A stretch of 49,323 bases of DNA from Telmatospirillum sp. GTDB taxonomy: Bacteria; Pseudomonadota; Alphaproteobacteria; Rhodospirillales; Magnetospirillaceae. A program made the position numbers and the translations under genes. Within the stretch, counting starts at the first letter, position 1, and each line of letters begins with the position of its first letter. This document shows, piece after piece, positions 30,764 through 49,085 of the stretch. The notes beneath the pieces were generated by a model. That model did not search any database, was not told where the DNA came from, and saw only the letters and a program-made list of their open reading frames with translations. The DNA is taken from NCBI GenBank assembly GCA_031291415.1, contig JARLJB010000012.1, positions 1 to 49,323 of the forward strand, in the 5' to 3' direction.

Positions 30764-31777
30764 ATGGTTACTCGTTTGAAATCTCGTTTGAGCGTGCTGT
30801 GGTTGCAGGCCGGCAGTTGCGGCGGTTGCACGATGTCGGCTCTTGGTGCTGAGACGCTTGGGTTGAGCGAAACCCTTGAGCGCGCCGATATCGAGCTGCT
30901 GTGGCACCCCTCGTTGGCCGAAGAGGGCGGCCCCGAGGTGTTGCGTCTGCTGGAACAGTGTCGAAGCGGCGAACGGGCCTTCGACGTGCTGTGTGTTGAA
31001 GGGGCCTTGCTGACCGGTTCGAACGGCAATGGCCGATTCCAAATTCTCGCCGGCGGGCTGCGGCCGGTGTCCTGCTGGGTACGGGACCTTGCGCAAAGGG
31101 CGCGCTATGTGGTGGCCGTCGGAAGCTGCGCGGCGTTCGGCGCCATTCCGGCCTCTCCGGCGGTTCCGACCGAAGCCAAGGGATTGCAATATACCGGTGA
31201 GGAGCCGGGTGGTCTATTGGGGGCGGGATGGTTGTCGGGCAGCGGCCTGCCGGTCATCAATGTGTCGGGATGCGCCCCGCATCCCGGTTGGGTGGTGGAA
31301 ACGCTTATGGGGTTGGGGCAGGGTATTCTGCAAACGGCCGATCTGGACAGTTTCGGGCGACCGCGGTTTTGGGCAGACCATCTGGTGCACCATGGCTGCG
31401 CCCGTAACGAGTTTTACGAGTTCAAGGCCAGTGCCGCCGCACCTTCGCAACTCGGCTGTCTGTTGGAGAACCTGGGCTGCAAGGGAACGCAGGCGCCGGG
31501 AGACTGTAACCTCCGGCTGTGGAACGGCGGCTGGTCCTGCCCGAACGCTGGCTATGCCTGCATCAACTGCACGTCTCCTGCTTTTGAAGATCCGATCGGG
31601 GCCTTTCTTGAAACGCCGAAGGTTGCCGGCGTGCCTCTTGGACTGCCGGTCGATATGCCGAAGGCATGGTACGTCGCGCTGTCGGTTCTCTCCAAATCGG
31701 CGACTCCCGACCGCGTTCGCAAAAACGCTTGCGAGGACCACGTGGTCGTGCCGCCGCATTGTCGTTCGACATCGTGA
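30764..31777 (+). CDS. hupU: Regulatory [NiFe]-hydrogenase small subunit
   Basis: This 337-residue protein matches HupU/HoxB, the small subunit of H2-sensing hydrogenases (group 2b). It begins LSVLWLQAGSCGGCTMS with proximal-cluster cysteines and has no Tat signal and no C-terminal anchor, so it stays in the cytoplasm. Further cluster ligands lie in VAVGSCAAFGA, VSGCAPHPGW, HHGCARNEFYEF, NLGCKGTQ and GYACINCTSP. The sensor complex detects H2 and passes the signal to a HupT-type kinase. The ATG at 30764 fits the family start; an earlier in-frame ATG at 30707 lacks similarity. The large-subunit gene follows after 10 bases. Confidence 0.92.
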   Translation: MVTRLKSRLSVLWLQAGSCGGCTMSALGAETLGLSETLERADIELLWHPSLAEEGGPEVLRLLEQCRSGERAFDVLCVEGALLTGSNGNGRFQILAGGLRPVSCWVRDLAQRARYVVAVGSCAAFGAIPASPAVPTEAKGLQYTGEEPGGLLGAGWLSGSGLPVINVSGCAPHPGWVVETLMGLGQGILQTADLDSFGRPRFWADHLVHHGCARNEFYEFKASAAAPSQLGCLLENLGCKGTQAPGDCNLRLWNGGWSCPNAGYACINCTSPAFEDPIGAFLETPKVAGVPLGLPVDMPKAWYVALSVLSKSATPDRVRKNACEDHVVVPPHCRSTS

Positions 31778-31787
31778 GGTTTTTCCT

Positions 31788-33239
31788 GTGAGCGAGCTGA
31801 TCCTTGGACCTTTCAGCAGGGTCGAGGGCGATCTGGAAGTCAGGATCGAGATCAACGACAACCGGGTTGCCCAGGCTTTTGTGGCGGCACCGCTCTATCG
31901 TGGTTTCGAGCAGATCCTACAGGGGCGTCCAGCCCAGGACGCGCTGGTCATTGCACCGCGCATCTGCGGAAGCTGCTCAGTTTCGCAGTCGGTCGCCAGC
32001 GCCCAGGCTCTCGCCATGGCGATGGATGTCGTGCCGCCGGCCAACGGCGTGATAGCCGCCAATCTGATTCTCGCCTGTGAGAATGCTGCCGATCATCTGA
32101 CGCACTTCTATCTTTTCTTCATGCCGGATTTCGCCTCGGGCACTTATGGCGGTCGGGGGTGGCATGACCGCGCGGTGGAACGATTCAAGGCACAGTCGGG
32201 CGTTGCCGGACGTCAGGCGCAGAAGGCCCGCGTCGCCTTTTTGCATGCGATGGGAATCCTGGCAGGAAAGTGGCCGCACAATCTCGCGGTGCAGCCTGGT
32301 GGAACCACCAAATCGGTCGATCTCGGCGAGCGGATGCGACTTCTGGCAGTGCTGGCGGAGTTTCGCAGTTTTCTTGAGACGACGCTGTTTGCCGACTCCT
32401 TGGAAAACATCGCCGCTCTGACCTCTGTCGATGCCCTGGAGAGGTGGCGGGAAGAGCGTCCGGCGGAGGTGGGCGACTTTCGTCTGTTCCTGCATATCGC
32501 CGAGGACTTGCACCTTTCCACGGTCGGCCGCGGGCCGGCACGGTTTCTCAGTTATGGAGCCTTTGGCGGAAACGACGGACAGTTGTTCGCGTCCGGCCTG
32601 TGGCGCGACGGCGATCTCTCGCCTCTCGATCTGGCGGGACTGCGCGAGGATCTCAGTCACGCCTGGATGTGTGGCGGCAGCCAGCATCCGGATGACGGCG
32701 TGACCATGCCCGATGCCGACAGGCTCGACGCCTATAGTTGGTGCAAAGCGCCGCGTCTCAACGGCGAGACCTGCGAGGTTGGGGCTTTCGCCAGGCAGAT
32801 GGTGGCCGGACATCCGTTGATCCGGGCCCTGGCGGTCGTTGCCGACGGTCGTGCCAGCGTCCAGGGGCGGGTCGTCGCGCGCTTGCTGGAACTGGCGCTC
32901 CTGGTGCCGGCGATGGAACGCTGGGTGCATTCCCTGGCCGGCGCCGAAGCCTATTGCCAATCGGTGGCTGTGCCGGATCGCGCTGACGGTTTCGGCCTGG
33001 TCGAAGCGGCTCGGGGAAGCCTCGGTCACTGGTTGTCGGTGGAGGGTGGGCAAATTCGCCAATACCAGGTTGTCGCGCCGACCACATGGAATTTCTCGCC
33101 GCGCGACAAAGCCGGCCAGCCTGGCCCCCTGGAAGAGGCGTTGGTTGGCGCGGCGGTTCTTCCGGGAGAGGAGTTTCCTCTCACGGTTCAGCATGTCATT
33201 CGATCGTTCGATCCCTGTATGCGCTGTGCCGTGCACTAA
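31788..33239 (+). CDS. hupV: Regulatory [NiFe]-hydrogenase large subunit
   Basis: The 483-residue HupV/HoxC-like subunit holds the [NiFe] centre. N-terminal ligands are Cys60 and Cys63 (RICGSCSVSQS) and C-terminal ligands Cys477 and Cys480 in DPCMRCAVH. The protein ends exactly at that His, with no extension to be cut off, which marks sensory hydrogenases and means no maturation protease is needed. The start is a GTG at 31788 with GAGG 8 bases upstream; the frame extending left to 31029 overlaps hupU and is rejected. The CGSC form in place of CGIC is a minor variation. Confidence 0.93.
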   Translation: MSELILGPFSRVEGDLEVRIEINDNRVAQAFVAAPLYRGFEQILQGRPAQDALVIAPRICGSCSVSQSVASAQALAMAMDVVPPANGVIAANLILACENAADHLTHFYLFFMPDFASGTYGGRGWHDRAVERFKAQSGVAGRQAQKARVAFLHAMGILAGKWPHNLAVQPGGTTKSVDLGERMRLLAVLAEFRSFLETTLFADSLENIAALTSVDALERWREERPAEVGDFRLFLHIAEDLHLSTVGRGPARFLSYGAFGGNDGQLFASGLWRDGDLSPLDLAGLREDLSHAWMCGGSQHPDDGVTMPDADRLDAYSWCKAPRLNGETCEVGAFARQMVAGHPLIRALAVVADGRASVQGRVVARLLELALLVPAMERWVHSLAGAEAYCQSVAVPDRADGFGLVEAARGSLGHWLSVEGGQIRQYQVVAPTTWNFSPRDKAGQPGPLEEALVGAAVLPGEEFPLTVQHVIRSFDPCMRCAVH

Positions 33240-33254
33240 AAATACCGTGCAAAA

Positions 33255-34817
33255 TCAAAATGTATTCACCAACTGACCATCCATGCTCATCTCGGAGACA
33301 AGCGTATGGACATGGTAGTGCATGGCAGATTTGACCGCATAAACCTGCAGTACGTCGGTCGGCGGTAAATGGCGCAGAAGCCGGCCCATGGAACGGCGGT
33401 AGTGTCGACGAAGGTCTCTGTCCTTCACTTTGGTTTGCAGGCGCAGGAAAATGAAGGCCGCCTCGGCGACCAGGCTGACGTCGAGCAGGAAGCGGCGCCA
33501 CGGCCTGTCGCGAAGATGCTCGCGACGCGGGTTGCTCTGACGCAACCGGCCTGTCAAATAAAGGTCGTCGAGACGTTGGAAATAGGCCTCGGGGTCATAG
33601 AGTTCGCGCATCACCCGAAGATATCCTTCGCGCAACGCATGGCGATCCATGCCCACGGGGATCACGTTCGTCCCGTAAAGCGGACGGTCATCGGGATCGA
33701 GACGGCCCTCCCGGGCCAGTCGGTCATGGAGTGGCGTCTTCGGGATGGCCGATAGCATGCCGACCATGCTGCTGACGATGCGCGCCTGCTGGATGAAACG
33801 AATCTGGCGCTCGAAAATGTCGTGGCCGTCGTTGTCGAACCCAAGGATCATGCCGCTCCACACTTCCATTCCGGCATTCTGGATGGCGTGGACCTTTTCG
33901 GCCATCGACCCTCCTTTTCGCAAGTTTTGTGTTTTTCCGGTTTCCTTGAGGGAGTCCTCGTTGGGCGTTTCGATGCCGACGAAGACGATGCGTATATTGG
34001 CTGCGACCATCAGGGCCATCAGTTCCGCGTCGTCGGCGAGATCGAGGGAGGCCTCGGTGAAGAAGATCATCGGATAGTCATGGGCGCGCTGCCAGGCGAC
34101 GACCTCAAGCAACACCTCCCTGATCGCCTTCTTGTTGCCGATCAGGTTGTCGTCGACGATGAAAACGGTGTCGACGCCGGGCGTCTTCCTGAGAGCTTCC
34201 AATTCGGCGATGACCTGGCCTGAGGTTTTGATGCGTGGGCGCCGGCCGAAGGTGACGATGATGTCGCAGAATTCGCAATTGAATGGGCAGCCTCGCGAAA
34301 ACTGGATACTGGCCAGCGCGTAGCGGCTCATTTTCAGCAGGTCATGACGCGGAACCGGTACCTTGGTCATATCGGTCTTTTCCGTCTGCTCATAACGTCC
34401 TGCGTGTTTGCCGTCGGCCCACTGCTCAAGGAACAGCGGCCAAGTGTTTTCCGCCTCGCCAACGAAGATGACGTCGGCAAGGGTGCCGAAATAATCCTCC
34501 TGCACCGTGACCCAGGGTCCGCCCACCACCGTGAAGACTCCTCGGCGTTTGAGTTCCTCGAGAACTTCCGTCATGCGGAATCGTTGCACCGACATGCCCG
34601 TCACTCCGACGATGTCGGCGCGGGCGCAGCGTTCGAAATCGATGGCTTCGACATTCTCGTCGATCAGGGTGAAGCTATGCCCTTCCGGCGTCAGCGCGGC
34701 CAGCAAGGGTAACGCCGCCACCGGAAGATTGGCCTGGTAGCCAAGCAAATGGAGTGCGTGTTCAAGTCCCCAATAGCTCGGCTCGAAACGTGGGTTGATC
34801 AAGACTATGTCGGCCAT
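33255..34817 (-). CDS. B12-binding radical SAM protein (DUF4070, HpnP-like)
   Basis: The 520-residue protein has an N-terminal cobalamin-binding Rossmann domain (about 1-130; LINPRFEPSYWGLEHAL, GVTGMSVQRF, VVGGPWVT), a radical SAM barrel with the cluster motif Cys177-x3-Cys181-x2-Cys184 (SRGCPFNCEFCD), and a C-terminal DUF4070-type region. HpnP, the hopanoid C-2 methylase, shares this architecture and the segments FVGIETPN and GMILGFDND, so a methyl transfer or ring chemistry on a lipid-like or polycyclic substrate is possible but not shown. ATG 34817 is taken since similarity begins there. The gene is divergent from the hyb operon and convergent with hupV. Confidence 0.85.
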   Translation of the reverse strand: MADIVLINPRFEPSYWGLEHALHLLGYQANLPVAALPLLAALTPEGHSFTLIDENVEAIDFERCARADIVGVTGMSVQRFRMTEVLEELKRRGVFTVVGGPWVTVQEDYFGTLADVIFVGEAENTWPLFLEQWADGKHAGRYEQTEKTDMTKVPVPRHDLLKMSRYALASIQFSRGCPFNCEFCDIIVTFGRRPRIKTSGQVIAELEALRKTPGVDTVFIVDDNLIGNKKAIREVLLEVVAWQRAHDYPMIFFTEASLDLADDAELMALMVAANIRIVFVGIETPNEDSLKETGKTQNLRKGGSMAEKVHAIQNAGMEVWSGMILGFDNDGHDIFERQIRFIQQARIVSSMVGMLSAIPKTPLHDRLAREGRLDPDDRPLYGTNVIPVGMDRHALREGYLRVMRELYDPEAYFQRLDDLYLTGRLRQSNPRREHLRDRPWRRFLLDVSLVAEAAFIFLRLQTKVKDRDLRRHYRRSMGRLLRHLPPTDVLQVYAVKSAMHYHVHTLVSEMSMDGQLVNTF

Positions 34818-35085
34818 GGTTATCCCATCAAGATGTCGGACTATTGCTGCCCACGCCGATGTAATGACCTGATCGGAAAATGTGCTACGTCGTGATTGCG
34901 TCGTTACATCGTATATTGAAGTGCATTTCATTTTTAGACAGCGATCGGCTCTCGACCGTGAACGCTTCGCCGAAGTCGGTGCGCAAGACAGCAGCAGAGC
35001 ACAGGCTGACCAACATTAATCATTAATTTTCGCCTTCAGTCCTCGCAAACGATGTCAACGTGGCGGCGATCGCTAGAAAGATACC

Positions 35086-35199: not shown

Positions 35200-35214
35200 T
35201 GGCCCGGGTCTTGC
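35200..35214 (+). promoter_or_regulatory. Sigma-54 (-24/-12) promoter of the hydrogenase operon
   Basis: TGGCCCGGGTCTTGC has the invariant GG at 35201-35202 and GC at 35213-35214, exactly ten bases apart, and matches the TGGC-N8-TTGC pattern at most positions. Transcription would start near 35226. The window's HupR-like regulator has the GAFTGA loop needed to activate such promoters. Confidence 0.7.
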
Positions 35215-35456
35215 GTTGGTCCTTGCTATTCATGAGACCAAGAAGGTCCGACGTGGGAGGGTGAGGGGTGTTCGCTCACTGTCTAGAGATTGTCCAGCCG
35301 CCGCGCAGTCGCAAGATGGCGCCGGCCTGTCGTCTTTGTCACGACGCCATCCCCGGGCCCATCGGAAGTCTTTATCGGTTTTGACCATTTCCCCGCCGAT
35401 GGCTGCGCGCCGCGGCGGCGATTCGTTCTTCGCGCGAGCAGAGAGAGGTTGGGAAT

Positions 35457-36581
35457 ATGAGCGACGACATCTTGAACGCGATCGAGACGAGACTGGGGCT
35501 CTCTCGCCGCAGTTTCATGCAGTTCTGTGCGGCCATGGCAGCGACGATGGGCTTGCCGGCCGGCGCGGAAGCCGAGATCGCCAATGCCATCGTCTCCGGC
35601 AAGCGTCCGCCGGTCATTTGGTTGCATTTTCTGGAATGCACCGGCTGTACCGAATCGATGCTGCGCGCTGAACATCCCGCTCTCGACAAGCTGATCCTCG
35701 AGGTCATTTCGCTCGACTATCACGAAACCCTGTTCGCCGCCTCCGGGCATCAGGCGGAAGCCGCCCGCAAGAGTGCGATGGCAGCCAACAAGGGCAAGTA
35801 TGTGCTGGTCGTCGAAGGGGCTATTTCGACCAAGGACGGTGGCATCTACTGCAAGGTCGGCGGCCAGACCTCCCTCGACCTGGTCAAGGAATGCGCGGCT
35901 GACGCAGCTGCCGTGATCGCCATCGGCTCCTGCGCCGCCTGGGGTGGCATGCCGTCTTCGGCCCCCAATCCGACCGGTGCGGTGGGCGTGGCCGAGATTA
36001 TCAAGGACAAGCCGGTGGTGAATATCCCCGGCTGCCCGCCCAGCCCCTACAATTTCCTGTCGACTGTCGTGCATTATCTGACGTTCGGCGTGCTGCCCGA
36101 TCTCGACGACAAAGGTCGGCCGAAATTCGCCTATGGGCGTATCATTCACGAGAATTGCGAACGTCGTCCGCATTTCGATGCTGGTCGTTTTGCCCAGGAA
36201 TTCGGCGACGAGGGGCATCGCAAGGGGTACTGTCTGTACAAGTTGGGATGCAAAGGCCCCGAAACGTTCGCCAACTGTCCGTCGATTCTTTTCAACGATG
36301 TCGGGGGTGGAAGCTGGCCGGTCGGGACGGGGCATCCCTGCATCGGTTGTTCCGAGAAAGGAATCGGCTTCACCAAGCCGATTCATGCCCTGGCTGATCC
36401 GCTTTACATCACGCCGCCGGAATCCTATCCGCGAATTGTCGAAGAACAGGGGCAGGGAGTGACGTTGGGCTCCGCCGCGACCGTGGCCGTTATCGGTGGT
36501 TTGGCTGTGGGTGCCGGGTTGCGGGTCGCCCGCAATCTCGGCAAGAGCAAGCCGGAAGATACGTCGATCGGGAAGGAATGA
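35457..36581 (+). CDS. hybO: Uptake [NiFe]-hydrogenase small subunit (HybO type)
   Basis: The 374-residue protein carries a Tat signal (LSRRSFMQF, Arg17-Arg18) and a C-terminal membrane helix (about 345-365, GSAATVAVIGGLAVGAGL), so the enzyme faces the periplasm. Proximal-cluster cysteines are in LECTGCTES; other ligands lie in AIGSCAAWGG, IPGCPPSPYN, HENCERRPHF, YKLGCKGPETFANCP and HPCIGCSEKG. Gene order with HybA, HybB and the large subunit afterwards is that of E. coli hydrogenase 2 (group 1c), not hupSLC. It would channel electrons from the active site to HybA. Transcribed from the sigma-54 promoter upstream. Named hybO by position; hupS would also be used. Confidence 0.93.
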   Translation: MSDDILNAIETRLGLSRRSFMQFCAAMAATMGLPAGAEAEIANAIVSGKRPPVIWLHFLECTGCTESMLRAEHPALDKLILEVISLDYHETLFAASGHQAEAARKSAMAANKGKYVLVVEGAISTKDGGIYCKVGGQTSLDLVKECAADAAAVIAIGSCAAWGGMPSSAPNPTGAVGVAEIIKDKPVVNIPGCPPSPYNFLSTVVHYLTFGVLPDLDDKGRPKFAYGRIIHENCERRPHFDAGRFAQEFGDEGHRKGYCLYKLGCKGPETFANCPSILFNDVGGGSWPVGTGHPCIGCSEKGIGFTKPIHALADPLYITPPESYPRIVEEQGQGVTLGSAATVAVIGGLAVGAGLRVARNLGKSKPEDTSIGKE

Positions 36582-36585: not shown

Positions 36586-37557
36586 ATGGCTCTCTCCAGA
36601 CGCAATTTTCTCAAGGGAGCGGCCGCCGGCAGTGCCGCCGCGGCTTGCGCCGCGGCCACGACCACACCGGCCGACGCCCGCGAGAACCAGACCTTGCCGC
36701 CAAAGGCGGTCGGTCTGCTTTACGATTCGACGCTTTGTGTCGGCTGCAAGGCCTGTGTCGTGGCTTGCCGCGACGCCAACGACACCAAGCCGGAATTCTC
36801 GACGGACGAGAAGATATGGGATACCGCCCTCGACATCTCGGGCAAGACCATCACGGTCATCAAGATGTACTCAGAGGGAACCGGGCAGCATAAGGACCAG
36901 GAAAAGGACGGTTTCGCCTTCATGAAGCGGTCCTGCCTGCACTGCGTCGATCCGTCTTGCGTGTCGGTCTGTCCGGTCAGCGCGATGACCAAGGATCCGG
37001 TGACCGGCATCGTCAGCCACGAACCGGCGGACTGCATCGGTTGCCGCTATTGTATCGTCGCCTGTCCGTTCGCTGTGCCGCAATTCGAATTCGACAAGCC
37101 GTTTCCCAAGCTTCTGAAATGCCAACTCTGCAAGCAGCGGTTGGCGGTTGGCAAGATCCCGGCCTGCGCCGAAGTCTGCCCGACCGGCGCGACGCTGTTC
37201 GGTCCGGTAACCGCTTTGAAAGAAGAGGCGGCGCGCCGTACCGGCACTCCGGCGGGACAACCGACCAATTATCCCCGCAAAGTCGTCGACTCGACCGATG
37301 TGCATGAACGTCCTAACGCCAAATATGTTCAGCATACCTACGGTGCCACCGAGATGGGGGGCACGCAGATGCTGCTGCTTTCGGGCGTGCCGTTCGAAAA
37401 GATGGGCTATCCGACGCTTCGAGAGAAGTCTTATGCCGCCGAGGCCGAGACCATCCAGGATGGCATTTACGGTGGGTTTGTCGCACCGGTCGCGCTGTTC
37501 GCCGGGCTGCTTTACATGGCCCACAAGAACACCAAAAACCATGATGAGGAGGAATAA
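36586..37557 (+). CDS. hybA: HybA-type ferredoxin subunit of hydrogenase
   Basis: The 323-residue protein has a Tat signal (LSRRNFLKGA, Arg5-Arg6), four clusters' worth of cysteines for 4Fe-4S centres (CVGCKACVVAC, CLHCVDPSCVSVCP, CIGCRYCIVACP, CQLCKQR with CAEVCP) and a C-terminal membrane helix (FVAPVALFAGLLYMAH). In hydrogenase 2 it relays electrons from the small subunit to HybB. The ATG at 36586 is four bases after the stop of the small-subunit gene, with AAGGA upstream. Confidence 0.93.
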   Translation: MALSRRNFLKGAAAGSAAAACAAATTTPADARENQTLPPKAVGLLYDSTLCVGCKACVVACRDANDTKPEFSTDEKIWDTALDISGKTITVIKMYSEGTGQHKDQEKDGFAFMKRSCLHCVDPSCVSVCPVSAMTKDPVTGIVSHEPADCIGCRYCIVACPFAVPQFEFDKPFPKLLKCQLCKQRLAVGKIPACAEVCPTGATLFGPVTALKEEAARRTGTPAGQPTNYPRKVVDSTDVHERPNAKYVQHTYGATEMGGTQMLLLSGVPFEKMGYPTLREKSYAAEAETIQDGIYGGFVAPVALFAGLLYMAHKNTKNHDEEE

Positions 37558-37559
37558 CC

Positions 37560-38753
37560 ATGTCCAAGGCTTCTCCTCTGGGCGGTCCATACATCACCAA
37601 GACGACGGTGATCACTGCCATCTTGACCGCGATCATGGGGGCACTGCTGCTCTATCGCCTGGTTTTCGGGCTGGGTGCGGTGACCAATCTTTCCAACGGC
37701 TACGGTTTCGGCCTGTGGATCGCCTATGACGTGTTCATCAGCACCGCCTTCGCCTGCGGCGGCTATTCCATGGCCATCCTGGTCTACATCTTCAACAAGG
37801 GCGAGTTCCATCCACTGGTTCGACCGGCTTTGCTGGCTTCCGCCTTCGGCTACAGTTTGGGCGGTATGTCGATCATGTTCGACATCGGCCGTTACTGGAA
37901 CGCCTGGCATCTGTTCCTGCCCGCATGGGCCAACACGACGTCGATCATGTTGGAGGTGGCCTGCTGCATCGGCGCCTATTGCTGCGTTCTGTGGGTTGAG
38001 TTCGCCCCGGTGATCGCCGCGAAATGGGGCACGCCGAAAATCCAGAAGATGTTGACGAAAACCGCCTTCATTCCGATCGCCGTCGGATGCCTGTTGCCGA
38101 CCATGCACCAGTCTTCTCTGGGATCGCTGCTCATTCCGGCGGGATATCTGGTCCATCCCCTGTGGCAGACCAACGTTTTGCCGCTTCTGGCGCTCAGTTC
38201 GGCGATCTGCATGGGCTATTCCATCGTCATCTTCGAAGGCAGCCTGGTTGCCGAAGCCTATAACCGCCCCAGCGAGGCGCCGATGCTGGGCAAGATCTCG
38301 CGGATTATCTCCTGGTTGCTGATATTCTACCTGGTGGTCCGTTGGGGAAATCTCATTTACGCGAACAAGCTGGGCCTGGTCCTGACATCGGGGAAATATT
38401 CGGCGTTCTTTATCATCGAGAACGTGCTGTTCTTGCTCCCGATTATTCTTCTTGCCTCGCAGCGGACCAGGTTCAACCCGCAAATTCTCTTCATCGCCGC
38501 GGTATCCATGTTGCTTGCCGGCGCCCTTTATCGCCTCGACCTGGTGCTGATCGCCTATGGTCGTGAGGGGTGGCACTATTTCCCGTCGATCGGCGAGATC
38601 CTGATTACCGTCGGTTTTGTGGCCCTGGAGATCCTGGGTTACATCGTCTGCGTCAGATTGTTCCCTGTTCTTTCCAGCCATCATCCGGCCTCGGGGTCGG
38701 ATTCCCATAGCGTTCGGCGTGCCCCAAGCGTGGCCGCGACGACCAACAAGTAA
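37560..38753 (+). CDS. hybB: HybB-type integral membrane subunit (NrfD/PsrC family)
   Basis: The 397-residue protein is almost wholly membrane-spanning (about ten helices) and belongs to the NrfD/PsrC family, which exchanges electrons with quinones and binds no heme. It replaces the cytochrome b (HupC) of most proteobacterial uptake hydrogenases. In E. coli, hydrogenase 2 can drive proton-coupled reverse electron flow through HybB, so this enzyme may be coupled to proton movement. GAGGAGG ends 8 bases before the ATG, which follows hybA by two bases. Confidence 0.93.
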   Translation: MSKASPLGGPYITKTTVITAILTAIMGALLLYRLVFGLGAVTNLSNGYGFGLWIAYDVFISTAFACGGYSMAILVYIFNKGEFHPLVRPALLASAFGYSLGGMSIMFDIGRYWNAWHLFLPAWANTTSIMLEVACCIGAYCCVLWVEFAPVIAAKWGTPKIQKMLTKTAFIPIAVGCLLPTMHQSSLGSLLIPAGYLVHPLWQTNVLPLLALSSAICMGYSIVIFEGSLVAEAYNRPSEAPMLGKISRIISWLLIFYLVVRWGNLIYANKLGLVLTSGKYSAFFIIENVLFLLPIILLASQRTRFNPQILFIAAVSMLLAGALYRLDLVLIAYGREGWHYFPSIGEILITVGFVALEILGYIVCVRLFPVLSSHHPASGSDSHSVRRAPSVAATTNK

Positions 38754-41068: not shown

Positions 41069-41314
41069 ATGTGCATGGCCATTCCGTCGCGTGTTCTGGC
41101 CATCGAGGGCGACATGGCCACGGTCGAATGTTTCGGGGTGGAACGCCGGGTCAGCCTGATGCTGATGGATGAACCGGTCGCCCTCGGCGATTTTCTGATC
41201 ATTCAGTCGGGTGCTTTCGCGGTGGAGCGCGTGTCGCCGGAACAAGCCCGCGAGTCGCTCGACTATTTTGCGGAAGCCATGCGAGAGGTTCCGCCACCCA
41301 ACGAGGCGATATGA
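41069..41314 (+). CDS. hupF: HypC/HybG/HupF-family chaperone (dedicated paralogue)
   Basis: An 81-residue HypC-like protein with the essential N-terminal Cys2 (MCMAIPSRV), which in the family contacts HypD and the large subunit to deliver the Fe(CN)2CO unit. It is one of two such proteins in the island; the C-terminal part (EAMREVPPPNEAI) is longer than in the second. HupF-type proteins in other bacteria protect HupL under oxygen. It overlaps the next gene by 4 bases. Confidence 0.9.
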   Translation: MCMAIPSRVLAIEGDMATVECFGVERRVSLMLMDEPVALGDFLIIQSGAFAVERVSPEQARESLDYFAEAMREVPPPNEAI

Positions 41315-42450
41315 CCGGCACGCCTGCGGAGGGGGCCATCCACATTCGTCTTGGTGTGGAGGCGGGGTTGTTTTCCAAGGTCGTCATCGGAAATCACCGG
41401 ATCTTGCGGGCGACGGCGCCCTTGGCCGGGCGGTCCGGTGACGATGTTCCGGACTTGGTGGCGCGGTTGTTTTCCGTCTGCCGGATTGCCCAGGGTGTTG
41501 CTTCCGTCAGCGCCATCGAAGGGGCGTCGGCGGTTCGGCCCGACGGCCGACAGAAAGCGGCACGGCATTTTCTGATCCAAAGCGAGACTTTGCTCGAACA
41601 TGCCGGACGGGCTTGTCTCGACTGGACCCGGTTGCTTGGCGAAGCGCCATTGGTGGCCGTGCTTAAGCGGCTTCGTTCGGCTTTGGTGGACTTGCCGGAC
41701 CGACTTTTCCCGGACGGCGACTGGCTGCGGCCCGGTGGTGGCCGGCTTCTCACTGAGGCCCCCTTGTTGACAGACCGTCTGACCGCCGTGGCCGAAGCGG
41801 TCGACCAAGCCATTCTGGGCCGGTTCGGTGACGATGGAATTCCGGTGGGCGACGCCACCATCCTCGGCCGACTGGCCGGGAAATTCCTGACCGACGGCGT
41901 CGCCGGTTTTGGGGCGATGACAATCGGTCCTTTGCCGATTTTTGAGGCCGGGCCGCTTGACGCCCGATTGGCGGCCGACGCCGATGGTGGCTTCATCGCC
42001 CGTCCGGACTGGGGAGGCATGCCTTATTTGACCGGCCCGCTGGCCCGTCGTTGGGACCATCCGGCGGTGCGGGCTGTCATTGCCCGTCATGGCAGCGGGC
42101 TGTTGGCGCATGTGGCTGCCAGGGCGGTGGAAATGGCGGCGACCTTGCGCGAAATGCAGGACTTCGCGCAAGGTCTGTGCAAAGATACCAGTTCGCAATC
42201 GGAGCCGGCTGATGGAGGTCTGGCGGTCGTCGAGGCGGCTCGCGGTCGGCTGGTGCATCGGGTGGAACTCGATGCGGGGAAGGTAATGCGTTATCAAATT
42301 CTGGCTCCCACCGAATGGAATTTTCATCCGAACGGCCCGTTGGTCCAGGGGCTTTTGGGGCATCCCGCCGGCGTCGATCCGGTCAGCCGGGCCGGTATGC
42401 TTGTCACCGCTCTTGATCCTTGCGTCGCCTTTCGTGTCGAGATGCTGTGA
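41311..42450 (+). CDS. hupK: HupK-like large-subunit homologue lacking [NiFe] ligands
   Basis: The 379-residue protein resembles a hydrogenase large subunit over its length but has lost catalytic ligands. The terminal motif, normally DPCxxCxxH, reads DPCVAFRVE, keeping Cys371 while Cys is Phe374 and His is Glu377. The N-terminal pair has decayed to SVCRIAQGV. HupK proteins are thought to be a scaffold on which the Fe cofactor is built or held before transfer to HupL. It is placed between hupF and hypA, sharing one base (TGATG) with hypA. Confidence 0.85.
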   Translation: MTGTPAEGAIHIRLGVEAGLFSKVVIGNHRILRATAPLAGRSGDDVPDLVARLFSVCRIAQGVASVSAIEGASAVRPDGRQKAARHFLIQSETLLEHAGRACLDWTRLLGEAPLVAVLKRLRSALVDLPDRLFPDGDWLRPGGGRLLTEAPLLTDRLTAVAEAVDQAILGRFGDDGIPVGDATILGRLAGKFLTDGVAGFGAMTIGPLPIFEAGPLDARLAADADGGFIARPDWGGMPYLTGPLARRWDHPAVRAVIARHGSGLLAHVAARAVEMAATLREMQDFAQGLCKDTSSQSEPADGGLAVVEAARGRLVHRVELDAGKVMRYQILAPTEWNFHPNGPLVQGLLGHPAGVDPVSRAGMLVTALDPCVAFRVEML

Positions 42451-42791
42451 TGCATGAAATGTCGTTGACCGAGGGTATCCTTCGGGTGTTGGAAGAGCAG
42501 GCGGCGGTGCATGGGTTTGCCCGGGTGAAGACCGTCTGGCTGGAGATCGGCGAGTTGTCGCCGGTCGATCCCGAGGCACTGCAGTTTTGTTTCGAGGCGA
42601 TCCGGATCGGAACTCTGGCTGAAGAGGCCAAAATGGAAATCGTCCGGGTTCCCGGCCAAGCGCTTTGCATCGATTGCGGCAAGCAGGTACATCTGGTTCA
42701 CCGGTTTGCCTCCTGCCCGGACTGCGGGGGAGAAAAACTCCAGGTCAGCGGTGGTGACGAGATGCGGATCAAGGAATTGGAGGTCGAGTGA
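42450..42791 (+). CDS. hypA: Hydrogenase nickel incorporation protein HypA
   Basis: The 113-residue protein delivers nickel to the large subunit with HypB. His2 (MHEMSLTEG) is the Ni ligand, and a zinc site is formed by CIDCG and CPDCG in the C-terminal half. The ATG overlaps the hupK stop (TGATG), and the stop shares a base with the hypB ATG. Confidence 0.95.
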
Positions 42792-43765
42792 TGTGCACGG
42801 TATGTGGCTGCGGTAATGACACCGTCGGTGGCGCCGAAGGCCATGAACACGATCACGATCATGGGCACCCTCATGACCATGGACACGAGCATGGTCATGA
42901 TCACGATCATCCGCACGATCATGGCGATGGTCCTCACCATCATCACGACCATGACCATCTTCATGAGCATGTTTCCGAAGACGCCGCCGGCGACATGCAT
43001 TTCGGTCAAGGACCGGCGGGAACCCACGTTCCGGGACTGAGCCAGGCCCGCATGGTCAAGATCGAGCAGGATATTCTCGGCTACAACAACGGTTTCGCGG
43101 CGGAGAACCGCGCCTATTTCGCCGAAAACGGTGTGCTGGCGCTCAATCTGGTGTCAAGCCCCGGATCGGGGAAGACAACACTGCTGTGCCGGACCGCCGT
43201 TGATCTCAAATCGCGCTTTCCGGTGTCCGTCATCGAGGGAGACCAGCAGACCAGCAACGATGCCGATCGCATCCGGGAAACCGGCGTGCCGGCTTTGCAG
43301 GTGAACACCGGCAAGGGCTGCCATCTCGATGCCCACATGGTTGGCCGCGCCGTCGAAAAGCTCGGTCCGGCCGAGGATTCTGTGCTCTTTATCGAAAATG
43401 TCGGCAATCTGGTGTGTCCGGCCGGTTTCGACCTTGGGGAAGCCGCGAAAGTGGTCATCCTTTCGGTGACCGAGGGCGAGGACAAGCCAATTAAATATCC
43501 CGACATGTTCGCCGCCGCCGAGGTGATGATCCTCAACAAGGTGGATCTGCTGCCTTATCTCACATTCGATGTCGAACGATCGATCGCCTACGCCCGCAAG
43601 ATCAACCCGCAGATCGACGTGCTGAAGGTTTCGGCGACCTCGGGCGAGGGGTTGGACGGTTGGTACCAGTGGATCGACAAAAAGCGGACGGCGGTGTTGT
43701 CCGAGCGGATCGCCGCCCTTGAGGCCAAACTGGCGAGTGTGCGTAACCGTCTGGCATCGCATTGA
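42791..43765 (+). CDS. hypB: Hydrogenase nickel GTPase HypB with His-rich N-terminus
   Basis: The 324-residue SIMIBI GTPase has three parts: an N-terminal high-affinity nickel motif (Cys2, Cys5, Cys7 in CTVCGCG), a His/Asp-rich segment with 22 histidines in about 45 residues (about 17-61), and the GTPase domain with Walker [28 protein letters not shown], and NKVD. It stores nickel and loads it onto HypA and the large subunit. The ATG at 42791 is preferred over GTG at 42788. The DNA of the His region is a tandem of near-repeats, prone to length change. Confidence 0.95.
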
Positions 43766-43782: not shown

Positions 43783-44007
43783 ATGTGTCTTGCCCTGCCT
43801 GCTCTGGTTAAGGACGTGTTGCCCGATGACCTCGCCCTGGTCGAACTGGGCGGCGTGACCAAGGAAATCTCGCTTGCCCTGGTCGAAGATGTGGTCGCTG
43901 GCGACTATGTCATCGTTCATGTCGGATATGCCCTGTCGAAGGTCGATCCGGCCGAGGCCGCGAAGACCTTGGCGCTGTTCGCCGAAATGTCGGCGGCCGT
44001 GCAATGA
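43783..44007 (+). CDS. hypC: Hydrogenase assembly chaperone HypC
   Basis: The 74-residue protein starts MCLALPALV with the essential Cys2 and continues with VGDYVIVHVGYAL-like VAGDYVIVHVGYALSKVD. It forms the HypC-HypD scaffold for the Fe(CN)2CO unit. It overlaps hypD by 4 bases (ATGA). Its closeness to hypD suggests it is the general partner, with hupF the substrate-specific one. Confidence 0.94.
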   Translation: MCLALPALVKDVLPDDLALVELGGVTKEISLALVEDVVAGDYVIVHVGYALSKVDPAEAAKTLALFAEMSAAVQ

Positions 44008-45131
44008 AATATATCGATGAATACCGTGACGGGCAGTTGGCGCGGCAAATCGCCGCGACGATCGCGGCGGAGGTGACGCCTGGACGGCACTACGGATTGA
44101 TGGAGTTTTGCGGCGGCCATACGCACGCCATTTCGCGCTACGGCATCGAAGATTTGCTGCCCGCCAATGTTCGGATGATTCATGGACCGGGATGCCCGGT
44201 TTGCGTCCTGCCGATCGGGCGCGTCGATAATGCCATCGACATCGCCAGCCAGCCGGACGTGATTCTTTGCACCTATGGCGATCTGTTGCGGGTTCCCGGC
44301 TCGGGGCGGCGCAGTTTGCTGAAGATCAAGGCGGCGGGCGCCGACGTGCGAATGGTCTATTCGGCGGCCGACAGTCTGACGGTTGCGCGTGAAAATCCGG
44401 GCAAAAGGGTGGTCTTTTTCGCCATCGGCTTCGAAACGACGACGCCGCCGACGGCGCTCGTCCTGCAGCAGGCGAAAGCCATGGGGCTCGCCAACTATTC
44501 GGTGTTCTCCAATCATGTTCTGACCCCGTCGGCCATCGGCGCCATTCTCGACAGTCCCGAGGTGAAGGATCTGGGAACGGTGCCGCTTGATGGGTTCATC
44601 GGTCCCGCCCACGTCTCGACGGTGATCGGCAGCCGTCCCTACGAGGCCTTCGCCAGCGACTATCGGAAACCCGTGGTTATTGCCGGCTTCGAACCGCTCG
44701 ACGTGCTGCAGGCCATTCTCATGCTGGTGCGCCAACTGAACGAGGGGCGCTTCGAGGTGGAAAACGAGTTCAGCCGCGCGGTGACCCGGGACGGCAATCG
44801 TAAGGCACAGGCGATCGTCGCCGACGTTTTCGAACTGCGCCCGACCTTCGAGTGGCGCGGCCTCGGCATGCTGCCCAATAGCGCGCTTGCCATCCGGGAA
44901 TCCTATGCCGCCTGGGATGCCGAACGATCGTTCCATATCGAAACCAAGACCGTTCCCGACAACAAAGCCTGCGAATGCGGCGACATTCTGCGCGGCGTGA
45001 AGAGACCGGCCGACTGCAAGCTGTTCGGAACCGTCTGCACGCCTGAAAATCCCATGGGATCCTGCATGGTTTCGGCCGAGGGCGCCTGCGCTGCGCACTG
45101 GACCTACGGTCGTTTCCGCCAGGCCAGCTGA
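44004..45131 (+). CDS. hypD: Hydrogenase maturation protein HypD
   Basis: The 375-residue iron-sulfur protein is the site of Fe(CN)2CO assembly. Motifs: MEFCGGHTHAISRYG, HGPGCPVCVLP, FAIGFETTTPPTA, and a C-terminal cysteine group (CECGDILRG, CKLFG, CTPENPMGSCMVS) that holds the 4Fe-4S cluster. The start overlaps hypC; the stop is followed by about 100 bases with a long hairpin before hypE. Confidence 0.95.
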   Translation: MKYIDEYRDGQLARQIAATIAAEVTPGRHYGLMEFCGGHTHAISRYGIEDLLPANVRMIHGPGCPVCVLPIGRVDNAIDIASQPDVILCTYGDLLRVPGSGRRSLLKIKAAGADVRMVYSAADSLTVARENPGKRVVFFAIGFETTTPPTALVLQQAKAMGLANYSVFSNHVLTPSAIGAILDSPEVKDLGTVPLDGFIGPAHVSTVIGSRPYEAFASDYRKPVVIAGFEPLDVLQAILMLVRQLNEGRFEVENEFSRAVTRDGNRKAQAIVADVFELRPTFEWRGLGMLPNSALAIRESYAAWDAERSFHIETKTVPDNKACECGDILRGVKRPADCKLFGTVCTPENPMGSCMVSAEGACAAHWTYGRFRQAS

Positions 45132-45144
45132 TACAATGAGCCGC

Positions 45145-45202
45145 CAAGACACCTGACGAAAAGGACGTGCCGGCGTGGCCGGCGTTCGTTTTTGGCGTCT
45201 TG
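45145..45202 (+). other. Long imperfect hairpin between hypD and hypE
   Basis: CAAGAC (45145-45150) pairs with GTCTTG (45197-45202), with an inner GCCGGC-GTG-GCCGGC stem and several mismatched pairs between. The T-rich 3' arm (CGTTTTT) lies inside the stem. It may reduce read-through into hypE or stabilise the upstream message. Confidence 0.45.
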
Positions 45203-45232
45203 ATGCTTAACCTTTAGAATGACGAGCTTTGA

Positions 45233-46279
45233 ATGACCACTCTGCAACGCAAAGGTCCCTCCCTCGATTTCAAAAATGGCCGTGTCGATCTGTCGCATGG
45301 CGGCGGCGGGCGCGCCATGGCGCAATTGGTCGAGGAATTGTTCGTCGAGAGTTTCGATAACGATATGTTGCGTCAGCGCAACGATCAGGCGTCGATGGCC
45401 GTCGAGGCCGGACGCCTGGTGATGACCACCGATGGTTACGTCATCTCGCCGATGTTTTTTCCCGGTGGCGATATCGGGTCGCTTTCCGTGCATGGCACCA
45501 TCAACGATGTGGCGATGGCCGGTGCCGTGCCGATGGCGCTGTCGGCCTCCTTCATTATTGAGGAGGGGCTGCCGCTTGCCGATCTGAAACGGATCGTCGT
45601 TTCGATGGCGGCGGCCAGCAAGGCGTCCGGCGTACCGGTGGTGACCGGCGATACCAAGGTGGTGGAGAAGGGAAAGGGCGACGGTCTGTTCATCGCCACC
45701 ACCGGAATTGGGCGGGTTCCCGACGGCATCAATATTTCCGGCGACCGGGCGCGGCCGGGCGACGCCATCCTGATCAGCGGCAGCATGGGTGACCATGGCG
45801 TGGCGGTGATGAGCTTGCGCGAAAGCCTGGGCTTCGAAACCACTTTGCATTCCGATTCGGCGGCCCTGCACCGGCTGGTCGCGGCCATGGTGGCCGCTGT
45901 GCCGGACATCCACTGCCTGCGCGACCCGACGCGGGGCGGGCTGGCGTCGACTTTGAACGAATTGGCCAGCCAATCGGGCGTTGGCATGCGGATCCGCGAG
46001 ACAGCCATTCCGATCCGCGAGGAGGTGCGCGGCGCCTGCGAGTTGTTGGGGCTCGACCCGCTTTACGTGGCCAACGAGGGCAAGCTGATCGCCATCGTGC
46101 CGGGGGCCGAGGCCGAACGGCTGCTGGCGGTCATGCAAGCCGATCCGCTGGGGCGCGAATCATCGATCATCGGAACCGTGGTCGAGGATTCCCATCATTT
46201 CATCCAGATGGAAACCTCGTTTGGTGGCAATCGCGTCGTCGATTGGCTGGCCGGCGAACAGTTGCCGCGAATCTGCTGA
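45233..46279 (+). CDS. hypE: Hydrogenase maturation protein HypE
   Basis: The 348-residue protein takes carbamoyl from HypF on its terminal cysteine and dehydrates it to thiocyanate for the Fe centre. It ends in PRIC, with Cys348 as acceptor, and has the AIR-synthetase-like ATP fold: DLSHGGGGRAMAQL, MTTDGYVISP, GTINDVAMAGA, GDTKVVEKGKGDG, ISGSMGDHGVAVM and DPTRGGLAS. ATG 45233 has GAG about 6 bases upstream. HypF, needed to supply carbamoyl, is not in the window. Confidence 0.95.
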   Translation: MTTLQRKGPSLDFKNGRVDLSHGGGGRAMAQLVEELFVESFDNDMLRQRNDQASMAVEAGRLVMTTDGYVISPMFFPGGDIGSLSVHGTINDVAMAGAVPMALSASFIIEEGLPLADLKRIVVSMAAASKASGVPVVTGDTKVVEKGKGDGLFIATTGIGRVPDGINISGDRARPGDAILISGSMGDHGVAVMSLRESLGFETTLHSDSAALHRLVAAMVAAVPDIHCLRDPTRGGLASTLNELASQSGVGMRIRETAIPIREEVRGACELLGLDPLYVANEGKLIAIVPGAEAERLLAVMQADPLGRESSIIGTVVEDSHHFIQMETSFGGNRVVDWLAGEQLPRIC

Positions 46280-46297
46280 CATGCGCCGCAGGCAGCC

Positions 46298-47743
46298 ATG
46301 AGCGAAATACCGATTGTTCTGATTGTCGATGACGAGGTGCGTTCGCAAGAAGCGTTACGCCGGGTTCTCGCCGATGAGTTCGAGGTATTGACGGCATCGT
46401 CTGCTGCCGAAGCCGAGGCATTGCTCGACGTCGAGATGGTCGATGTCGTCCTTTGCGATCAGAAGATGCCGGGCTGCACCGGCGTGGAGTTTCTGAAGGA
46501 GGTGCGACATCGGTGGCCGGATTCGGTGCGGATGATCATCTCGGGTTATACGGACTCCGAGGACATCATCGCCGGATTGAACGAGGCCGGCATCTATCAG
46601 TACATCACCAAGCCGTGGGATCCGGACGAACTGATCCGGTCGATCAAAGGGGCGGTCGATGCCTATCGCTTGCAGCGCGAGAATCAGAACGCCAGCGTCG
46701 AGATCCGCGTCGCGACGGAGTCGTTGCAGCAGCAGGTGAGCGCCAAAAGAAATGTGCTGAAAAGCCGGTTCGGTTTTGACCGCATCATCCACGCCGCCGA
46801 CAGTCCGATGGCCGACGCGATCAGGACCGCCGAGAAGATCGCCGGTTACGACATCTCGGTGCTGATCACCGGCGAATCGGGAACCGGAAAGGAACTCTTG
46901 GCCCGCGCGCTGCACTATAACTCGCCGCGCGCCGACAAACCTTTCGTTGTCGAAAACTGCGCGGCGCTGCCCGACCAGCTTCTCGAATCGGAACTGTTCG
47001 GCGCGAAGAAGGGGGCCTTCACCGGTGCCTACGAGGACCGCATCGGCCTGTTCGAACAGGCCGACGGCGGGACCATGTTTCTCGATGAAATCGGCGAGAC
47101 CTCTCCCGCCTTCCAGGTAAAATTGCTGCGTGTCCTGCAGGAAGGCGAAATCAGGCCGCTGGGTGCCCGATTGACCCGCAAGGTCAATGTCCGGGTGATC
47201 TCGGCGACCAACCGGAATCTTGAGCTGGAGGTGGCGAGCGACCGGTTCCGCCGCGACCTCTACTATCGTCTGGCGGCGTTCCGTCTGCATTTACCGCCTT
47301 TGCGGGAGCGTCCCACCGATGTGCCGTTGCTGGCCGAGGTCCTGCTGGAGGAGACCGGCAAAGCCTTCGGCAAGACCATTCTTGGGTTTTCCGACGAGGT
47401 GCTGGCCCGTCTGGCGACGCACGACTGGCCCGGCAATGTGCGCGAATTACAGAACGAGATTCAACGGATGGTCGCACTGGCCGAGCATCCGACGATCGGG
47501 GCCGATCTGTTGTCGTCGGCATTGTCGCATACGGCCGGCGAGCCGGTCCTGCGACCGCCCGTCGCCGCGAGGAGCAGTGGAAATACGCTGCGCGAGCGCG
47601 TCGAGGTGCTGGAAGAGGAAATCATTCGCGAGGCGCTCACCCGGCACAGTTGGAACATCAGCCGTGTTGCCGACGAGCTCGGTTTGTCGCGGGTGGGCTT
47701 GCGCGCCAAGCTGCAGAGATACGGGCTTGAGAGGATGAACTGA
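46298..47743 (+). CDS. hupR: NtrC-type hydrogenase response regulator HupR/HoxA
   Basis: The 481-residue activator has a receiver domain with phospho-acceptor Asp54 (VVLCDQKMPG) and the acidic pair Asp11-Asp12, an AAA+ domain with Walker A GESGTGKE, the sigma-54 contact loop GAFTGA and FLDEIGE, and a Fis-type helix-turn-helix near the end (NISRVADELGLSRVGLRAKL). HupR/HoxA proteins are known to activate hydrogenase genes in the unphosphorylated state. The intact GAFTGA fits the sigma-54 element before hybO. It follows hypE by 18 bases and hupT by 4. Confidence 0.93.
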   Translation: MSEIPIVLIVDDEVRSQEALRRVLADEFEVLTASSAAEAEALLDVEMVDVVLCDQKMPGCTGVEFLKEVRHRWPDSVRMIISGYTDSEDIIAGLNEAGIYQYITKPWDPDELIRSIKGAVDAYRLQRENQNASVEIRVATESLQQQVSAKRNVLKSRFGFDRIIHAADSPMADAIRTAEKIAGYDISVLITGESGTGKELLARALHYNSPRADKPFVVENCAALPDQLLESELFGAKKGAFTGAYEDRIGLFEQADGGTMFLDEIGETSPAFQVKLLRVLQEGEIRPLGARLTRKVNVRVISATNRNLELEVASDRFRRDLYYRLAAFRLHLPPLRERPTDVPLLAEVLLEETGKAFGKTILGFSDEVLARLATHDWPGNVRELQNEIQRMVALAEHPTIGADLLSSALSHTAGEPVLRPPVAARSSGNTLRERVEVLEEEIIREALTRHSWNISRVADELGLSRVGLRAKLQRYGLERMN

Positions 47744-47747
47744 GCCG

Positions 47748-49085
47748 ATGGCAGATCCGCACCGGCCCGACACCGACAAATCCACCGAATCGGTTGCCGC
47801 TGACGGCGACAAGCCGGCAGCTGCCGCCGAAGCAGCCTGGATCGAGGTGATTCGCAAGATGGATGAGGTCTATTCCGACCTCATTCGCTACGAAGTCGAT
47901 CTCGAACAGAAAAATGCCGCGCTGGAACAGGCGCAGCAGTTCATCGGCAGCGTCATGGCGTCGATGTCCGACATCCTGGTGGTGTGCGATCAGAAGGGGC
48001 GGATTGTGCAGGTCAATCCGGCGCTTTTGCATCTCACCTCATTTTCCCTCGATGATCTCGCCGGCCAGCCCCTGTCAATTCTATTGGCAGAACAAGACGC
48101 TCAGGTCTTTCGACCCGGCTGCATGGTTTCGGAGCATGAGGCCCGGCTGAAGAGCAAAGATGGCGGTTTCACCGATTTGGTGGCGATGAACTGTTCGCCT
48201 CGGCTGGAGAGGGACCGCCGCCCGCCCGGCATGGTTATCGTCGGTCGTCCGGTCGGCGAACTGCGTCAGGCCTATGAGGCGTTGCACGACGCCCATCTCG
48301 ATCTCAAGCGGGCCCAGTTGCAATTGGTCCAGGCCGAGAAAATGGCGTCCCTCGGCCGTCTGGTCGCCGGTGTCGCTCACGAGCTCAACAATCCAGTCAG
48401 CTTTGTCTATAGCAACGTGCATACGCTGTCCCGGTACCGCGAAAAATTGGCGCGTTATCTCGAGGCCGTCCATGCCGGCGTCGATCAGGACATCCGCGAG
48501 GACATGCGACGCAACCTGAAGATCGACAAACTGATGGCCGATTTCGGTCCGTTGATCGAAGGGACGCTGGAAGGTTCGCTGCGGATCACCGAGATCGTCA
48601 AAAATCTTCGCAAACTGTCCTTTGTCGATCCGACCGAAAACCAGAAAGTCAATATTGCCGAGGTGGCGCGCAATGCCCTGCAATGGGTGAAGCGTTCCGG
48701 CAAGCAACTGATCAATCTTGAGGACCATCTGCCGAAGGAACTGATGGTGGAAGGAATCGAAGGTCCCTTGCATCAGGTCTTCGTCAACCTCATCCAGAAC
48801 GCCGTCGATGCAATGAAATCGGTGCCACATCCACTGATTACACTGTCGGGTAGGCGGCTTGGTCTTCAGGTTGTGATTGTCGTGCGTGACAATGGTTCGG
48901 GCATTCCCGCCGATAATTTGTCCAAGGTTTTCGAGCCGTTTTTCAGCACCAAAGGCATCGGCAGTGGCACTGGACTAGGTCTCTGGGTCAGTTGGAGCAT
49001 CATTCGCGACCACGGCGGTCGCATCGAGGTTGCCAACAGTCCTGACGGCGGCGCCGCTTTTACGATCATCCTGCCAGCCGCGTGA
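47748..49085 (+). CDS. hupT: Hydrogenase sensor histidine kinase HupT/HoxJ
   Basis: The 445-residue soluble kinase has a PAS domain (about 65-175), a HisKA domain with His211 in GVAHELNNPVSFVYSN and an HATPase domain (NLIQNAVDAM, DNGSGIP, GTGLGLWVS). No membrane helix is seen, as for HupT, which interacts with the cytoplasmic HupUV. Without H2 it would phosphorylate HupR and switch it off. The gene starts 4 bases after hupR and is the last of the island within the window. Confidence 0.92.
   Translation: MADPHRPDTDKSTESVAADGDKPAAAAEAAWIEVIRKMDEVYSDLIRYEVDLEQKNAALEQAQQFIGSVMASMSDILVVCDQKGRIVQVNPALLHLTSFSLDDLAGQPLSILLAEQDAQVFRPGCMVSEHEARLKSKDGGFTDLVAMNCSPRLERDRRPPGMVIVGRPVGELRQAYEALHDAHLDLKRAQLQLVQAEKMASLGRLVAGVAHELNNPVSFVYSNVHTLSRYREKLARYLEAVHAGVDQDIREDMRRNLKIDKLMADFGPLIEGTLEGSLRITEIVKNLRKLSFVDPTENQKVNIAEVARNALQWVKRSGKQLINLEDHLPKELMVEGIEGPLHQVFVNLIQNAVDAMKSVPHPLITLSGRRLGLQVVIVVRDNGSGIPADNLSKVFEPFFSTKGIGSGTGLGLWVSWSIIRDHGGRIEVANSPDGGAAFTIILPAA

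Follow-up and report, generated by a model that had tools for sequence, protein, structure and literature searches.

The hydrogenase island and the classes of its two enzymes

The stretch of DNA considered here (the window) is an entire contig of 49,323 bases, JARLJB010000012.1, from a draft Telmatospirillum genome of 7.1 Mb in 412 contigs. Its positions 30764-49085 hold a Hyd-2-type (hydrogenase-2) structural hydrogenase next to HupUV/HupTR genes for H2 sensing, and every component of this island is an open frame at the coordinates given by a first-pass annotation of the sequence. The genes follow one another as hupUV, hybO-A-B-C, protease, hypC, hupK, hypA, hypB, hypC, hypD, hypE, hupR and hupT (Table 1). 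From hybO to hupT all of them lie on the plus strand with intergenic gaps of -4 to 101 bp, and a distance of 2.2 kb lies between hupUV and hybO, where a gene for a radical S-adenosylmethionine (SAM)/B12 protein sits on the opposite strand.

The order hybO-A-B-C, in which the first-pass annotation had recognized enteric hydrogenase-2, is identical to that of hybOABC in E. coli K-12. HybO has the RR motif of twin-arginine translocation (Tat) and a C-terminal hydrophobic stretch, HybA has 17 cysteines, 16 of them downstream of the signal region, and the tail of HybC extends 15 residues beyond the last CxxCxxH. HybA and the NrfD-like HybB, both over curated cut-offs, stand where a haem b cytochrome would be, and the hidden Markov model scores of HybC, HybA and HybB rule out chance matches. 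Concerning the sensor, the ATG of hupU falls exactly at the start that had been proposed for it, 30764, and the HupU N-terminus (MVTRLKSRLSVLW) has no Tat signal. HupV ends in DPCMRCAVH-stop, the chain stopping at the last His without C-terminal extension, as had been claimed for the regulatory enzyme.

We placed both large subunits in a maximum-likelihood tree of 58 sequences (17 reference rows, 23 HybC and 18 HupV, the window included), in which the group labels of the reference rows are our own assignment, in part from annotation, and groups 1b and 1e have no rows. HybC of the window clusters with the Hyd-2 HybC of E. coli and Salmonella in a 1c clade of 25 rows (support 100/99), apart from the six 1d rows, which form a separate clade (100/99), while HupV clusters with HoxC of Cupriavidus necator and three other 2b rows (22-row clade, 100/99). 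Group 1c rather than 1d for the structural enzyme and 2b for the regulatory one are the positions that the first-pass annotation had expected. HybC is 60.5% identical to E. coli HybC vs 44.0% to HyaB, and the identities of HybB and HybA to their E. coli counterparts are 46.9% and 45.1%. Against the PDB, HybC scores 812 bits with Hyd-2, followed by 3myr (574), 4c3o (531) and 1h2a (519), which we take to be a 1e, a 1d and a Desulfovibrio enzyme, respectively. Its best model, the NCBI Hyd-2 large-subunit equivalog NF007778, gives 908.3 bits, under the curated cut-off of 969; this score denies the protein the NCBI equivalog name, not phylogenetic group 1c. The proximal cluster motif of HybO is ECTGC, the standard type, and not ECTCC as in HyaA, therefore the extra cysteine that we assume to be a feature of O2-tolerant 1d enzymes is missing.

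With E. coli hydrogenase-2 (hybOABCDEFG, 1c) the island shares the order O-A-B-C-D, the standard proximal cluster motif and the NrfD-like HybB, but it has hupK, two hypC and hypABDE instead of hybE, hybF and hybG, and it adds the genes of an H2 sensor and of a sigma-54 regulator. All four proteins of the C. necator regulatory hydrogenase/HoxJ/HoxA system have counterparts in the window, 47-59% identical, and the tailless HupV and the GAFTGA motif are common to that system and to HupUV/HupT/HupR of Rhodobacter capsulatus; in the window, however, the adjoining structural enzyme is of Hyd-2-type 1c, not 1d, and HupV has Ser62 for Ile. The sensors of HupUV type that have been studied best are those of uptake enzymes of 1d type. 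The correspondence between the R. capsulatus proteins and the C. necator system is taken from excerpts of PMC10073562.

Table 1. Features of the island and of the intervening region, with positions in the window
Feature	Positions	Strand	Evidence
hupU, group 2b regulatory hydrogenase small subunit, no Tat signal	30764..31777	+	PF01058, PF14720; 58.8% to C. necator HoxB
hupV, regulatory hydrogenase large subunit, tailless, GTG start	31788..33239	+	54.3% to HoxC; 2b clade
B12-binding radical SAM protein, outside the shared island	33255..34931	-	PF04055, PF02310, PF13282
predicted sigma-54-type -24/-12 site TGGCCCGGGTCTTGCG, upstream of hybO	35200..35215	+	10/12 consensus letters
hybO, Tat-exported small subunit	35457..36581	+	TIGR00391 469.6 bits, over cut-off; Cys pattern
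hybA, Tat-exported ferredoxin-like subunit	36586..37557	+	NF008134 429.6 bits, cut-off 263; Tat motif
hybB, NrfD-like quinone/proton membrane subunit	37560..38753	+	NF008133 484.5 bits, cut-off 450; conserved polar residues
hybC, [NiFe] large subunit, group 1c, C-terminal tail	38769..40478	+	identity to E. coli HybC (see text); tree
hybD-type maturation protease	40572..41051	+	TIGR00140 167.3 bits, over cut-off
hypC paralogue, first copy	41069..41314	+	PF01455, TIGR00074
hupK, HoxV-like large-subunit homologue	41311..42450	+	30% to HoxV over 366 aligned columns; PF00374
hypA	42450..42791	+	TIGR00100 over cut-off
hypB	42788..43765	+	TIGR00073 over cut-off
hypC, second copy	43783..44007	+	TIGR00074 over cut-off
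hypD	44004..45131	+	TIGR00075 over cut-off
hypE	45233..46279	+	TIGR02124 over cut-off
hupR, NtrC-type regulator	46298..47743	+	57.3% to C. necator HoxA; receiver Asp (VLCDQKMPG), GAFTGA, Fis-type helix-turn-helix
hupT, PAS histidine kinase	47748..49085	+	47.2% to HoxJ; PAS, HisKA, HATPase_c

Regulatory genes, the site upstream of hybO and distribution in the order

The HupT/HupR pair named in the first-pass annotation was confirmed by likeness to HoxJ and HoxA, by the domains and by the regulator motifs, and GAFTGA and the receiver Asp are both present in all eight HupR proteins compared. Sigma-54-type sites were searched for in the 450 bp upstream of genes, with the GG and GC anchors required and a threshold of at least 9/12. 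Such a site was found upstream of hybO in 22 of 24 loci and upstream of hupU in 0 of 19; the predicted site of the window is found 242-257 bp before the start of hybO. The two hybO loci without it are L072, from a Deltaproteobacteria metagenome-assembled genome (MAG), and L076, from Azospirillum brasilense, and neither hupUV nor hupR was found in either stretch. TTG-N5-CAA, which is presumably the HupR operator motif, does not occur in the window in the up to 500 bp scanned upstream of hybO and hupU. Scans for sigma-70 promoters and terminators stayed at chance level (5 promoters vs 5.2 expected, 22 terminators vs 18.1). Judging from the genes and sites, the predicted wiring of HupUV/HupTR to hyb is well supported; a 1c-2b wiring is not stated in the literature searched, seen partly as excerpts and with most subscription-journal papers outside that search.

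Concerning the other members of the order, a HybB match was found in 66 of 297 genomes (65 tabulated, G288 being left out for its short partial match) and a 1d-type b cytochrome over cut-off in 41. The order small subunit, large subunit, cytochrome b, which the first-pass annotation had used as the usual alphaproteobacterial contrast, thus fails as a reference here. HupV was assigned to 71 genomes, counted as 2b-type by reading of the match list, with five fragments in and weaker matches to other hydrogenases out. HybB and HupV occur together in 51 of the 297 genomes, in 14 genera and 6 families, counted as raw genome numbers with kinship included, and 45 of these 51 have no 1d-type b cytochrome over cut-off. 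HybB without the 1d cytochrome is therefore the commonest pairing among HupV genomes (45/71); overall, HybB accompanies HupV in 51 of the 71 vs 21 for the 1d-type cytochrome. HybB is missing from 20 HupV genomes, 15 of which have the 1d-type cytochrome over cut-off, and 14 HybB genomes are without HupV. The functional hybrid proposed in the first-pass annotation is supported in part, by the 1c and 2b groups, the HoxA/HoxJ likeness, the sigma-54-type site and the lack of a 1d-type cytochrome b over cut-off, but it is not an unusual combination. The more frequent co-occurrence of the sensor with a Hyd-2-type enzyme in this order raises the question of whether an H2 sensor gates a potentially reversible enzyme, and in which direction.

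HybB and HupV lie at most 10 kb apart in 22 of the 51 genomes, always on the same strand (22/22) and with hupUV upstream in 21. Gene order was read in the window, in 20 fetched genome stretches and in five other loci, two of the 20 duplicating two of the five. This survey of neighbours, which the first-pass annotation had proposed, revealed a plan common in relatives: hupUV, hybOABC, protease, hypC, hupK, hypAB, hypCDE, then hupR where the stretch reaches it. An exception is G109, in which hupUV is placed between hypA and hypB. Of 385 genomes drawn from across the class, no more than 6 had HupV at E 1e-100 or better, two of them seen before. HybB had been counted in only 11 species of Alphaproteobacteria (2%), according to excerpts of PMC8076601.

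Telmatospirillum siberiense 26-4b1 has the same island, with a HybC 93% identical, but it differs from the window in having a 1d enzyme as well, in keeping Ile62 and Phe110 in HupV and in that no radical SAM gene was seen between hupUV and hybO. A 2018 paper, in its available passages, lists groups 1c, 1d and 2b for this organism, describes three operons for nitrogenase and reports that it grows autotrophically on hydrogen (PMC5786683). The hup region of Azospirillum lipoferum 4B (NC_016623; Rhodospirillales) also has hupU, hupV and a sigma-54 regulator gene, whereas its structural enzyme is annotated with cybH and falls in the 1d clade, and no HybA/HybB is annotated in that stretch.

Two further loci were noted. 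Directly upstream of hupUV in L069, a sister MAG of the window, L146:10069-13609 (plus strand) carries a [FeFe] group A hydrogenase gene that passes its cut-off and, after it, HmcB/HybA-like and HmcC/HybB-like genes that do not; going by these genes, a quinone-linked [FeFe] hydrogenase is possibly under the same HupUV sensor there. In L151 (G255:C24), hupU, hupV, a HypF-like gene, hupR and hupT stand together with no structural hydrogenase among the genes sought, its HupV reads A62, S110 and A475, and neither a HybB match nor a 1d-type cytochrome b over cut-off was seen in its genome.

Residue 62 of HupV

HupV of the window carries Ser instead of Ile at residue 62, encoded by AGC at 31971-31973, an alteration that was not mentioned in the first-pass annotation. 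Position 62 is the X of CGXC and position 110 the F in HFYLFF, with the same numbering in HoxC and in HupV of the window. We assume that Ile62 and Phe110 of HoxC form the O2 filter of the gas channel. The title of Duche et al. 2005, listed among the references of PMC6981441, concerns the effect of enlarging the channel. The two residues are typical of group 2b without defining it, and in the window Phe110 is present and Ile62 is not. The O2 resistance of such sensors has been tied to a narrow hydrophobic gas channel, as stated in excerpts of PMC5665086.

We surveyed 83 different HupV sequences: 66 of the 71 matches in the order (window included), 4 from the class search and 13 reference or plasmid records; G050, G214, G220, G261 and G286 fall outside this set, and four sequences that were exact duplicates were removed from it, as was a C-terminal half from G296. 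At position 62, 79 sequences have Ile, two have Ser (window and L069), one has Ala (L131) and one has a gap; at position 110, 80 have Phe, two have Ser (L069 and L131) and one has a gap. The four CxxC cysteines are kept in all 82 readable sequences, and HupV of the window also keeps F110, D475 and H483. The sister MAG L069 has F110S, D475N, P476L and the terminal H483Q besides Ser62, and L131 has D475A. The end of HupV in L069 reads NLCLRCAAQ in place of the usual DPCMxCTVH, with the conserved Asp and the terminal His lost and both Cys kept. In the tree the window and L069 are sisters (100/99) and L131 is placed elsewhere, and the replacement of residue 62 needs two changes, with the limit that L131 is a long branch of unsure position.

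A sequencing error at codon 62 is unlikely, since two separate genomes encode this Ser by different codons, the window by AGC and L069 by AGT (T. siberiense has ATC, Ile). General decay or relaxed selection on hupUV was also considered and set aside: the ratio of nonsynonymous to synonymous rates (dN/dS) of hupU and hupV between the window and two relatives is 0.09-0.17 (0.09 for hupU vs T. siberiense), with synonymous distances of 1.3-1.7, near saturation, and other pairs of the family range from 0.08 to 0.22, the highest being L089/L090. HupV evolves faster than HybC in all six pairs compared. Decay being unsupported by dN/dS, the argument for an altered sensor rests on single residues, and the same values suggest that the sensor of the window is probably still in use. 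A structural model of HupV alone reached a mean predicted local distance difference test score of 36.7 and was set aside.

The natural replacement at the presumed gas-filter residue of the sensor is the new element here. Our tentative and rather doubtful explanation is that in this Telmatospirillum lineage the replacement of Ile62 by Ser, joined in the sister MAG by that of Phe110 by Ser, may have opened the O2 filter, so that the sensor, itself O2-sensitive, would report the presence of H2 together with the absence of O2. Such a sensor would match a 1c enzyme with a standard cluster, and a separate O2 regulator would not be needed. The natural variants of residue 62 offer a ready series on whether the O2 filter of a sensor matches the O2 tolerance of its target.

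Proposed mechanism and alternatives

Gene content and order, the groups of the enzymes, the shared promoter-like site, the motifs and the co-occurrence are the grounds on which we consider it likely that the island encodes an H2-controlled respiratory hydrogenase of Hyd-2 (1c) kind, mainly oxidising H2; from them we infer the binding and action of HupR at this locus, the induction by H2, the catalytic direction and the quinone used. HupUV, a cytoplasmic regulatory hydrogenase, would signal H2 to the kinase HupT, and this signal would leave HupR, of NtrC type and thought to be active unphosphorylated, free to open the predicted sigma-54-type promoter. HoxA D55A, which is not phosphorylatable, is always active, according to the excerpted text of PMC10073562. 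The putative promoter would drive the operon-like run from hybO to hupT, and hupR and hupT, being inside this run, would therefore feed back on themselves. HybO and HybC would be exported via Tat, HybA would pass electrons to HybB, and HybB would reduce quinone, possibly menaquinone, coupled to proton movement. Possible sources of the H2 oxidised are nitrogenase (nifD is over cut-off twice in the genome), the group 3- and group 4-like enzymes of the organism itself and neighbouring cells that ferment.

In the genome of the window no 1d-type b cytochrome over cut-off was found, and none of the further PF00374 matches is group 1-like, all of them resembling group 3 or group 4 (C222, a group 3-like large subunit; C42, NuoCD/Hyf-like; C212, a group 4-like frame of 395 residues; all with both CxxC motifs), therefore no quinone-linked [NiFe] uptake enzyme that HupR could serve was found besides HybOABC. 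A [FeFe] group A hydrogenase over cut-off was not found in this genome either. Replacement of Arg89, Tyr99, Glu148 or His184 in E. coli HybB lowered H2 oxidation (PMC8076601, on Lubek 2019, in excerpts); their equivalents are invariant in 20 HybB, the window's included. MenD is over cut-off twice in the genome (C111 and C282). Since the proton-coupling residues of HybB are kept and MenD is encoded, quinone-linked, proton-coupled operation in either direction appears possible from the sequence.

Several observations weigh against the uptake enzyme under HupUV/HupTR control proposed above. Taken alone, the score of the sigma-54-type site of the window is modest (p 0.023 when the 450 bp around it are shuffled), and three more sites in the window score 10, two of them within hupV and hupR. 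Moreover, the site does not track hupUV cleanly: five loci have no hupUV in the stretch that was fetched, and of these L071, L095 and L096 carry the site and L072 and L076 do not. It should be noted that HupV is encoded at another place in G281 and G102, the genomes to which L095 and L096 belong, and that the absence of hupUV in L071 refers to the fetched stretch only, its genome being outside the search. In 29 of the 51 co-occurring genomes the HybB and HupV genes are not close: in 25 they are on separate contigs, and in 4 they share a contig but lie far apart. HupV of the window departs from the consensus at 5 of 153 otherwise near-invariant positions (S10, I20, S62, I471 and A481), changes that may have altered sensing, and HybB deviates (P49G, Y83F, V129I, A227G and G269N) at 5 of the 91 positions that do not vary among the other genomes compared, one of which, Y83, corresponds to E. 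coli Tyr84, a listed proton-path residue in the excerpts of PMC8076601.

A sensor that is vestigial or shifting in role, with HupUV of this lineage no longer reporting H2 properly and HupR constitutive or under another input, would fit Ser62 and the four further deviations, as well as the losses in HupV of the sister MAG; we regard it as unlikely, since hupU and hupV have dN/dS values inside the range of other pairs, their frames are open and the four CxxC cysteines and F110, D475 and H483 are kept. Even less probable is that HupUV/HupTR stand beside hyb by inheritance only, with another promoter as the true target and hyb under anaerobic regulators as in enterics. The distance between hupUV and hybO, with the opposite-strand gene between, and the 1d-type cytochrome b of T. 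siberiense (G133) would suit this arrangement, but the sigma-54-type site upstream of hybO is common to relatives, hupR and hupT are at the 3' end of the same gene run, and no further group 1-like hydrogenase was found in the genome of the window.

An enzyme mainly evolving H2, which would vent electrons of the quinone pool by means of the proton gradient while the H2 sensor tunes this activity, is compatible with the 1c/HybB type, with the conserved HybB residues that affect H2 oxidation in E. coli, with the encoded menD and with the mixed acid fermentation genes reported for T. siberiense (excerpts of PMC5786683). Nevertheless we hold it to be very unlikely: synthesis in response to H2 would point to H2 oxidation, fitting uptake rather than production, the group 3- and group 4-like enzymes of the genome are better suited to evolution, and T. 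siberiense is reported, in the same excerpts, to grow autotrophically on hydrogen.

Some minor observations concern single genes. The best HypF match lies outside the island and is short (a frame of 417 aa, below the family cut-off). One of the two MenD-family genes might be a paralogue or contamination, estimated at 3.56%. The radical SAM protein at 33255-34931 (minus strand) carries DUF4070, and its gene was matched in the window only, with no counterpart in the 25 other loci examined. The large-subunit-like frame on C212 (L007) has the motifs RICSLCSNSHP and DPCISC and presumably resembles the CooH/Ech types. Among the island genes compared within Telmatospirillum, hupK (41311-42450) shows the top dN/dS, 0.23-0.42.

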